From assembly GCF_017377875.1 (NCBI RefSeq), contig NZ_CP070975.1, forward strand, positions 2,232,001-2,296,000: a stretch of 64,000 nucleotides of DNA, in the 5' to 3' direction. The notes under the pieces were generated by a model. It worked only from the letters and a program-made list of their open reading frames with translations, ran no database searches and was not told where the DNA came from. Shown piece after piece: positions 55,037-58,885 of this stretch (its first letter is position 1; every line of letters begins with the position of its first letter). The DNA is from Alcaligenes sp. SORT26. GTDB taxonomy: Bacteria; Pseudomonadota; Gammaproteobacteria; Burkholderiales; Burkholderiaceae_B. The position numbers and the translations under genes were made by a program.

Positions 55037-57098
<2,062 letters not shown>

Positions 57099-57167
57099 TG
57101 CCTGTTTGATTCAAACGTAGTTCAAGCTCGATGCTGGCTGGTTTGCTGGCATCGGCTTTGATGGATG

Positions 57168-57207
57168 AAAAGCCCTGAGTGGACTGTATGTCTGCTTAGG
57201 GCTTTTT
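57168..57207 (+). terminator. Intrinsic terminator of thiC
   Basis: AAAAGCCCTGAG (57168-57179) pairs with CTTAGGGCTTTT (57195-57206) with one wobble, followed by T-rich sequence. Confidence 0.82.
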
Positions 57208-57280
57208 CCTTTTTGAAATGTAAGGGCTCAAGTAAAGAAAAAGTCTTGTTTGCAGGCAGAAGAGATCGTTGCAGGAGACG

Positions 57281-57511
57281 CCAGTTAAGCCTAGCCTCCG
57301 GGTGTCCGGGCTGAGCGTTTGCCGGTGCTGCGCACCGGTGCCCTTGTCAGAAGATAGCTACGGGCGCATCCTGAACTCGCCGGGTACTTGGTCCCCCGGA
57401 CCAAGTACAAGCGTCCGGCTCAAACAGCAGGATGCTTGCACCCCTACGCTATCTCCCGACTGCGGCAAACCCTCTGAACCGCCCGGACACCCGGAGGCTA
57501 GGCTCAACTGG
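57281..57511 (+). repeat. Structured element, copy 2 (full length)
   Basis: A 231-nt unit closed by a 31-bp outer stem (57281-57311 with 57481-57511, one mismatch). Inside, 5' to 3': hairpin CCGGTGC-TGC-GCACCGG (57322-57338); AGATAGC/GCTATCT (57352-57358 with 57448-57454); GCATCCTG/CAGGATGC (57366-57373 with 57428-57435); GCCGG/CCGGC (57379-57383 with 57415-57419); and the apical GTACTTGGTCC/GGACCAAGTAC (57384-57394 with 57398-57408). Segments CCCTTGTC, AACTCG, AAGCG, TCAAACAG and CTGCGGCAA match copy 3 outside the helices. It follows the thiC terminator in the thiC direction. Confidence 0.88.
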
Positions 57512-57589
57512 CTCACAATCGTTTTCTTTTGCATGACTTCAAACTGCATCCTTGAATGGCGTATGACACTTTCCTGGTCTGCGTCGAAT

Positions 57590-57726
57590 CTCTGACCTCT
57601 GACCTATTACCTCCGACCTATCACCTCAGTCCTTTCACCTCAGTCCTTTCACCTCAGACGTCAAACGTCAAACCTCAGATCCGAGATCCGAGACCCCAGA
57701 TCTCAGACCCAGACCCAGACCCAGAC
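57590..57726 (+). repeat. Heptamer tandem array (17 units) with three terminal hexamers
   Basis: Seventeen contiguous degenerate 7-base units such as CTCTGAC, CTATCAC, CTCAGTC, CTTTCAC, GTCAAAC and CCGAGAT fill 57590-57708 exactly, followed by three CCAGAC hexamers to 57726. Most units end in AC, TC or AT. It lies between the two full structured elements. Confidence 0.85.
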
Positions 57727-57762
57727 CCTCAATACATGATTTCTTGAATAGCCACGGTATGA

Positions 57763-57994
57763 GCCCTTGGGGGCGGTGGGGACCCGGAGGGGCGATTCAG
57801 AGTACTTGCCGCAGGCGGGGGCATCATCCGGGGTTCAAGCACTCTGCTGTTTGAGCGGGGCGCTTGTGGTTCGTCCGGGGGACGAACCACCCCGCGAGTT
57901 CAGAGTGCACCCGGATGATGTCCTCGACAAGGGAACCGGTGCGCAGCACCGGCAAGTGCTCAAGCCCCTCCGGGTCCTCACCGCCCCAAAGGGC
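57763..57994 (-). repeat. Structured element, copy 3 (full length, inverted)
   Basis: A 232-nt unit, read on the minus strand, with outer arms 57964-57994 and 57763-57793 (29 of 31 pairs match, one more is a wobble). Inner helices: hairpin CCGGTGC/GCACCGG (57936-57952); CATCATCCGGG/CCCGGATGATG (57822-57832 with 57910-57920); GCACTCTG/CAGAGTGC (57839-57846 with 57901-57908); GCGGG/CCCGC (57855-57859 with 57891-57895); apical GTGGTTCGTCC/GGACGAACCAC (57866-57876 with 57880-57890). Helix sequences differ from copy 2 except in the small hairpin, but loops match. It follows the ompA-like gene's terminator in that gene's direction. Confidence 0.88.
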
Positions 57995-58157
57995 GTGTTC
58001 ACTACCTGGTCCTACTCAATAATCAGCGCTAACTCCCAAGCAACGGTAACGCCCTCAACGACAACAGATAACCGCCAATTGGCAGCTCGCGGCTAACAAC
58101 AGACAACAAGCAAAGAACACTGCCCTCAAACCGCGCCATTACTCCCCAATCGAACAC

Positions 58158-58190
58158 AAAAAAAAGCCCGGCTAAAAAACCGGGCCTTTT
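58158..58190 (-). terminator. Intrinsic terminator of the OmpA-like lipoprotein gene
   Basis: On the minus strand GCCCGG pairs with CCGGGC across an eight-base loop, followed by a run of nine T. Confidence 0.92.
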
Positions 58191-58222: not shown

Positions 58223-58885
58223 TTACTTCTGCGGAGCGTACAGATACAACTCCACGCGGCGGTTCATGGCACGGCCTTCTGCCGTCGCATTATCACCAAT
58301 AGGAGCATTCGGGCCACGGCCTTCAACCATCAAACGACCTTGCCCCACACCTTGCTGCGTCAGGTAATTGGTCACAGCGCTTGCGCGATTAACCGACAAA
58401 GTCTGATTAGTCTGTGCCGAACCAGTGCTATCAGTATGACCAACAGACTTCGCGCGCAGCTCAGGATGCTGATTCATGGCGCGTGCCACGCTATCCAGAA
58501 CTGGCAGCAAAGCTGGCTTCAACTGAAAACGCCCCGTATCAAAAGACACGCTGCTTGGGATATTGACCCGCAAGCTGCCATCCGGCATTTCAGTGACATC
58601 CACACCCAAACCTGTTGCACCAGACTGCTGTACATCTTTCTTGATACCAGACCAGTTATACGCCGCAATACCTCCAGCCAGTGCACCGATACCTGCACCG
58701 ATCATGGCTGCCTTGCTGCTATCGCCAATCAAGGCCCCAATACCAGCCCCCACAGCAGCACCACCACCCGCACCCACTGCGGTGCGACCGCCTGTGCTCA
58801 TATTGTCCATTGTGCCGCAAGCGGCCAAGAGGGAAAGAGCACCAGCACATGCTGCTAATTTTGCAGAACGAATGGAAATTGTCAT
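58223..58885 (-). CDS. OmpA-family lipoprotein with glycine zipper
   Basis: A 220-residue outer-membrane lipoprotein: signal peptide with lipobox LLAAC (Cys23), a glycine-zipper pair (AVGAGGGAAVGAGIGALIGD, AAMIGAGIGALAGGIAAY), and a C-terminal OmpA domain (about 110-215) with SVGHTDSTGSAQTNQTLSVNRASAV and GRAMNRRVEL, which binds peptidoglycan. It anchors the outer membrane to the cell wall. The YiaD/Pal-like group is the best match. The gene stands alone with its own terminator. Confidence 0.92.
   Translation of the reverse strand: MTISIRSAKLAACAGALSLLAACGTMDNMSTGGRTAVGAGGGAAVGAGIGALIGDSSKAAMIGAGIGALAGGIAAYNWSGIKKDVQQSGATGLGVDVTEMPDGSLRVNIPSSVSFDTGRFQLKPALLPVLDSVARAMNQHPELRAKSVGHTDSTGSAQTNQTLSVNRASAVTNYLTQQGVGQGRLMVEGRGPNAPIGDNATAEGRAMNRRVELYLYAPQK

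Follow-up and report, generated by a model that had tools for sequence, protein, structure and literature searches.

In the chromosome of Alcaligenes sp. SORT26, two inverted copies of a structured module of about 230 nt, located between convergent terminators, are the two ends of one composite unit. We propose, with a probability of about 45%, that the module is borne by an old MITE and that what selection has maintained is a folded single strand, most likely RNA, which leaves the unit and has a role at the exit. From the data below we infer that this strand is RNA and not single-stranded DNA, that it acts at the exit (from the geometry of the unit), that the window copy was once mobile and that an enzyme moved it. 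Here, the window is the entire stretch of 64,000 nt that was analysed, and all coordinates refer to it.

A composite unit between thiC and a yiaD-like gene

Copy 1 of the module spans positions 57281..57511 and copy 2, inverted with respect to copy 1, spans 57763..57994 (231 and 232 nt, respectively), as reported in an earlier note on this DNA. Judging from sequence, arm pairing and fold energy, the strand that folds is probably the minus strand in copy 1 and the plus strand in copy 2. Copy 1 consists of a 31-bp outer stem, a long inner helix (P3), an 8-bp helix (P4), a 5-bp helix (P5), an 11-bp apical helix (P6, with the loop GGG on the minus strand) and a side hairpin. The previously described 31-bp outer stems were recovered: 57280-57311 pairs with 57481-57512 in copy 1 (32 nt, 97% complementary), and 57763-57793 pairs with 57964-57994 in copy 2 (31 nt, 94% complementary). 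The 8-bp, 5-bp and 11-bp helices are readable in both copies as described, and the unpaired stretches CCCTTGTC, AACTCG, AAGCG, TCAAACAG and CTGCGGCAA are indeed identical in the two.

The modules are separated by a spacer of short tandem repeats (57512..57762), including the repeat D1 at 57590-57673, in which five overlapping 28-nt copies follow each other at a spacing of 14. The whole composite unit is predicted to extend over 57208..58160, with limits set by the terminators that bound it. On the left, a terminator-like hairpin on the plus strand (57167..57207) follows thiC, the gene for phosphomethylpyrimidine synthase (55095..57098, plus strand); with an A-run on one side and a T-run on the other, this hairpin is possibly a bidirectional terminator. 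On the right, the unit is bounded by the terminator-like hairpin (58161..58190, minus strand) of a convergent gene encoding a YiaD-family glycine-zipper/OmpA-like lipoprotein (58223..58885, minus strand). The earlier note missed that both copies are ends of one unit. No clear terminal repeats or target duplication were seen by eye in the window unit, and no sigma-70-like promoter was recognised in this unit or in two loci of G005, a relative from the same genus.

A third copy in the window (L027, 5820-5893, plus strand) is truncated, with P4-P6 deleted between the imperfect direct repeats TGAACTCGCC and TGAATCGCC. This deletion looks like slippage across the hairpin; the orthologue in G008 (L120) is whole.

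Covariation and the strand that folds

The claim that the helix bases vary and still pair was borne out across the genome. Over 29 aligned own-genome cores (55 pairs in six helices), 96.0% of the 1591 cells are paired, compared to 74.2% after shuffling, and both sides have changed in 339 cells, compared to 95; slid structures pair in no more than 40.7% of the cells. Many of the unpaired stretches are nearly fixed while the helices differ between copies. The folding z-scores are -12.4 (copy 1) and -10.5 (copy 2) on the strands originally read, and -13.0 and -13.4 on the complementary strands, with 0 of 200 shuffles as good in each case. Part of the covariation is exchange of whole inner modules, not independent compensatory mutation: in at least four pairs of loci (L012/L097, L014/L092, L004/L107 and L011/L129), the inner module has been exchanged as a whole and the outer stem is orthologous.

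The earlier note probably chose the wrong strand as the sense of the element (its choice is hereafter called the original sense). In the inner helices P3-P6 of the 135 unique, model-aligned rows of alignment A3, there are, in the original sense, 187 A·C cells versus 20 G·T cells (31:2 in the own genome, 83:12 in G005 and 73:6 in other genera of the family). These cells are distributed over 18 versus 2 distinct pair-columns in the own genome, 24 versus 10 in G005 and 27 versus 6 in the other genera. Because A·C cells in the original sense are G·U wobbles on the complement, we take the complement as the folding strand; the folded strands of the two modules thus probably point outward from the spacer.

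The same asymmetry emerged from a count made with no model, in which the loops AACTCG and CTC-CA served as anchors for aligning the arms, with symmetric scoring. In P3 and P4 combined, the anchored A·C:G·T counts are 19:1 in the own genome (23 of 29 rows anchored), 24:5 in G005 (25 of 39), 49:2 in other genera (51 of 67), 20:4 in alignment A4 (30 of 34) and 26:9 in alignment A5 (52 of 54). The outer stems yield 19:3 in the own genome, 12:3 in G007, 18:0 in G008 and 14:2 in G004, these being orthologs and not independent. Folding energies point in the same direction, with -161.0 kcal/mol on the minus strand versus -141.8 on the plus strand for copy 1 (a difference of 19.2), and -170.2 kcal/mol on the plus strand versus -151.8 on the minus strand for copy 2 (a difference of 18.4). 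The RNAalifold consensus reaches -108.4 kcal/mol with 60 pairs on the complement, compared to -96.0 kcal/mol with 55 pairs in the original sense. By arithmetic from the pair counts, reading the complement raises the fraction of paired cells to 98.2%; when the complement was realigned and scored with the mirrored structure, the value was 95.6%, not higher, because gaps shifted in two helices.

On the complement, the sequences combine covariation beyond chance with wobble pairs, as would be expected of a structured non-coding RNA, and tandem G·A pairs could arise within the conserved UUUGA/GAGUU internal loop. G·U makes up 2-5% of the complement-strand pairs, which is low for RNA. The near-absence of G·U had at first suggested a DNA-only mechanism, an idea given up once the A·C mismatches were recognised as wobbles on the opposite strand.

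Several observations complicate the choice of strand. The asymmetry could also be produced by a mutation bias: the G>A and C>T rates at conserved unpaired positions are 5.4% versus 3.0% overall and 7.1% versus 1.4% in G005, where such a bias may enlarge the effect. The outer helices of A3 have 5 A·C cells versus 2 G·T cells in the own genome and 14 versus 5 in G005, and the order is reversed in the distant rows (3 versus 45). There is no A·C excess in the model-aligned inner helices of the distant sets A4 (41 versus 41, with 103 other mismatches) and A5 (39 versus 54, with 138 other mismatches), and for these two alignments the anchored count contradicts the model-aligned one.

Dispersal, age and spread of the repeat

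A covariance model built and searched against relatives, as the earlier note had suggested, brought out many further copies with compensatory changes. The own genome (4.08 Mb, one contig) contains 30 places identified by DNA search, from 32 rows, the two surplus rows being arms of copy 1 that match each other; the covariance model also gives 30 matches, of which 29 are strong and one is weak (36 bits). The truncated copy is on the DNA-search list and absent from the covariance-model list. In G005, there are 82 matches. The family is a set of dispersed non-coding copies without a transposase, as is typical of MITEs. A PF01610 search of the own genome found no matching transposase, yielding a single weak match with an internal stop.

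Six convergent pairs (plus, then minus) account for 12 of the 30 own copies, and 25 such pairs account for 50 of the 82 matches in G005, where 14 of the 25 have an offset of 360-363 nt and no divergent pair was found within 1 kb. Of 18 loci from other families of the order, 12 have a second match on the opposite strand, and in 11 of these the plus match precedes the minus one. The units of G005 are about 0.73 kb long (732-736 bp in six paired units), with short inverted repeats, GGTTCTTCG at the start and CGAAGAACC at the end; both ends are found within two mismatches in 15 of 30 loci. They are flanked by A/T-rich target duplications of 8 bp: on average, the 8-mers on the two sides agree at 5.8 of 8 positions, compared to 3.0 when partners are shuffled (reached in 0 of 20,000 shuffles), and they agree at seven or more positions in 5 of 15 loci. 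By eye, these units sit in T- or A-runs, many of them adjoining terminator-like hairpins; in the own-genome copies inspected, no terminal inverted repeats or duplications were recognised by eye. The dispersed copies, the inverted-repeat ends and the 8-bp duplications in a relative support a mobile repeat. The earlier note had offered a structured RNA and a mobile repeat as two possible readings; the second of these is supported, but they are not alternatives, the module riding in a MITE-like unit.

Under a simple ORF rule, 24 of the 30 own copies have an upstream gene that runs in the same direction as the copy, and 21 have a T-run of at least 5 between gene and module; the right-hand gene is convergent in 16. 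No gene recurs in the flanks of many copies when the 30 own loci, each about 3.2 kb long, are compared. L022 and L023 share 868 nt at 98%, and the remaining shared stretches, of up to 382 nt, are the element and its arms. Tandem repeats also lie beside L017, L018, L005 and L025 in the own genome, with units that vary between loci (for example, CACCACGT, AAACGGC and TGACC).

Altogether, 23 own copies were grouped with same-site copies in stretches from G004, G007 or G008. Over 50 ortholog comparisons involving 22 own copies (the truncated copy was excluded), divergence is 5.6% at unpaired core positions (loops), 7.1% in core stems and 10.1% in outer stems; when the eight comparisons with swapped modules are left out, the values for core and outer stems are 3.8% and 8.0%. 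The modules, at 4-10%, are thus far less divergent than the 200-nt flanks, at 24%. Because low divergence in outer stems that are specific to their locus is hard to obtain by conversion from other copies, selection likely acted after insertion. Between own loci and those of Alcaligenes faecalis AU14 and A. pakistanensis, matches of more than 700 nt are 82-94% identical. Selection on folding, suggested in the earlier note, is supported by the covariation, the constraint on orthologs and the wobble asymmetry, which a purely double-stranded DNA mechanism is not expected to yield.

In the pairwise ortholog count, from which the own non-Watson-Crick cells (46 outer, 98 core) were dropped, double changes that preserve pairing number 77 in the outer stems and 51 in the core, and one-sided changes number 71 and 27, respectively. 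The orthologs also differ by clustered double changes and a few symmetric indels. Both are what template switching, if it keeps the arms complementary, could leave behind, which makes this proposal plausible but not proved; outer-stem gaps are one-sided in 30 cells and two-sided in 4.

Searches over more than 40 genomes were run with stricter filters and few candidates scored per genome, so the counts that follow are lower bounds. Model R1 has matches in at least 24 of 61 genomes; among nine other same-genus genomes, G006 is the sole one where no R1 match passed the stricter filters. Model R2 was built from R1 matches, which puts its most distant matches at risk of model drift; it matches at least 78 of 250 genomes and 26 of 43 genera in the family, at least 39 of 300 genomes in the order and at least 16 of 369 in the class (the own genome is included in all these counts). 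Copies in relatives number in the hundreds, and distant members are often inverted pairs. The loop AACTCG is kept in 30 of 34 rows of A4 and 56 of 58 rows of A5, and CTCARACA in 28 of 34 and 54 of 58, respectively. Many of the distant flanks inspected contain a further hairpin, of the type GTTACTTTTTCTTGCTTCGCCAAGAAAAAGTAACC, which adjoins modules from several families (for example, at L269, L294 and L301) and overlaps spurious-looking ORFs. The window module had no match in either the plasmid or the phage collection, and one distant module had no match in plasmids.

In some other genera, the spacers contain genes, with the following examples, which are not a census: a PaaA2-type antitoxin with ParE (G010), two GNAT proteins (G028), a DUF2971 protein (G036), and an 8xMP protein with proteins that have no Pfam match (G399). 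Because the arms are inverted, any gene in a spacer points toward a module that is read in the folding strand. At L069 (1905-2626, G010), the PaaA2/ParE pair lies between two modules, with repeated spacer sequence on its flanks; the sister unit L156, with stretches 90% and 97% identical, lacks this pair. L269 and L270 (G399) are units of about 1.4 kb with similar modules that bracket different genes, one of which encodes the 8xMP protein.

Possible function and relation to known systems

According to the explanation we prefer, the window unit would be one old, decayed MITE-like composite with the two copies as its arms. In the distant past, it would have entered the T-tract of an intrinsic terminator between thiC and the yiaD-like gene, which converge. 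Each arm would be a module of about 230 nt that works as a folded single strand, the outward one, most likely as RNA. A transcript leaving in either direction, from promoters in the spacer or in the cargo, would pass one module in the folding sense and then the neighbour's terminator, since the arms are inverted; transcripts entering from the neighbours would read the module complement. Given this outward-only geometry of folding, the most likely job of the module would be a transcript-exit structure, predicted to be a 3'-end block or stabiliser needed by the unit. Hosts may have kept the module because antisense transcription into the neighbours was limited. Selection on folding would keep the arms complementary, assisted by template switching and by gene conversion that transfers entire modules from one copy to another.

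The main rival of the RNA reading is recognition as single-stranded DNA, in which the outward strand would fold during replication or transfer and be recognised, similarly to attC, by a recombinase or an HUH-type enzyme, with the modules serving as recombination sites that bound small gene cassettes. Strand-specific folding fits this possibility too, and single-stranded DNA tolerates G·T better than A·C. The conserved asymmetric unpaired bases and the cassette-like cargo of some spacers (PaaA2 with ParE, two GNAT proteins, DUF2971, 8xMP) also count in its favour, but we regard it as unlikely: the ends of the G005 units are transposon-like, with 8-bp duplications, the modules are inverted rather than arranged in direct arrays, and the plasmid and phage searches described above gave no match.

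Under another reading, which appears improbable, the repeat is an old MITE that passively forms DNA hairpins and has no folded product under selection; the complementarity of its arms would be due only to gene conversion and template switching. The clustered double changes, some symmetric indels and the module swaps are compatible with this scenario, as is the predominance of two-sided over one-sided ortholog changes in the core (51 versus 27) with near parity in the outer stems (77 versus 71); paired changes of this kind are known to arise by template switching (PMC8794818). However, the asymmetric unpaired bases persist while the helices turn over, with AACTCG and CTCARACA kept in nearly all rows of A5, orthologous sites diverge far less than their flanks, and one-sided gaps exceed two-sided ones; the excess of A·C over G·T further weakens this reading. 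That excess is also not expected of double-stranded DNA sites for topology or protein binding between convergent genes, comparable to BIME/REP (gyrase, IHF, cruciform), because a cruciform folds both strands at once. The location downstream of genes, often convergent (16 of 30 right-hand genes), the 30 chromosomal copies and the low divergence after insertion are in line with such sites, but the location is also accounted for by insertion at terminator T-tracts, and we rate this possibility as quite improbable.

The family, unrecognised in the earlier note, has no Rfam counterpart: no match reached the gathering thresholds in the window or in 12 loci from other genomes, and at E up to 10, there were just two microRNA matches, both outside the elements. 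Among the matches listed in a search of open-access papers, none describes this repeat family. Dispersed structured repeats or MITEs are a known kind of element; within this kind, the anatomy, the breadth and the strand-biased signature appear to be new. Like MITEs and paired REPs (REPINs), the window family is non-coding, dispersed and intergenic, occurs in inverted pairs and lacks its own transposase; unlike them, it has multi-helix arms of about 230 nt with conserved asymmetric loops and strand-biased mismatches, its spacers can carry genes, and it is recognisable beyond the order. REP/REPIN elements proper (palindromes of 20-40 nt with a GTAG or CGTC tag) are set apart from the module, with its several helices, by size alone. 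In P. fluorescens, repeats are biased to tail-to-tail gene neighbours, according to PMC2718517. By their description in PMC1590033, the Ype, Efa, NEMIS and ERIC elements resemble the window family in being stem-loop repeats near gene 3' ends, possibly cotranscribed; the Bordetella repeats in that source are 26-30 bp long and are not this family.

The ISL3 family has GGCTCT ends and 8-bp duplications (by eye at L231, L233 and L234), resembling the GGTTCTTCG ends and 8-bp duplications of G005. The resemblance is confined to the start GGyTCT and the duplications, the sequences differing beyond the first bases. An ISL3 element may have been the mobiliser, although the ends of the ISL3 copies compared in relatives differ from the unit ends, no ISL3 gene was seen inside a unit and the own genome has only the weak PF01610 match mentioned above. 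In integron attC sites, the stems are variable, the unpaired bases are conserved and one strand folds, and the sites lie 3' of cassette genes such as those for toxin-antitoxin pairs and acetyltransferases. The window family shares the variable stems, the conserved unpaired bases and, probably, the folding of one strand. An attC site was nevertheless rejected, given that GTTRRRY and RYYYAAC occur near both ends in only 1 of 30 own copies and that the arrangement is inverted, not direct; the ends of the own copies instead show GACGC on the 5' side (11 of 30) and a GGCTCA-type motif on the 3' side (14 of 30).

An element that covaries deeply, reaches tens of copies in some genomes, can be recognised outside the order and is absent from Rfam amounts to a large unexplained body of shared sequence. 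Counting A·C against G·T is a cheap test of which strand of a covarying repeat folds; it also separates selection on a folded strand from template switching, and here it reverses the strand first assumed. With same-site copies in several Alcaligenes-type genomes and rapid change in the helices, the contributions of compensatory mutation, template switching and gene conversion become measurable. The genes within some units raise the question of cassettes. It is conceivable, albeit improbable, that mobile gene cassettes bounded by two inverted folding modules are spread through Burkholderiales and into other orders of its GTDB class, and that their enzyme recognises the modules in a folded form, either RNA or single-stranded DNA, and not as duplex; empty cassettes would then appear as paired repeats, and full ones would carry toxin-antitoxin, acetyltransferase and other genes at terminator T-tracts.
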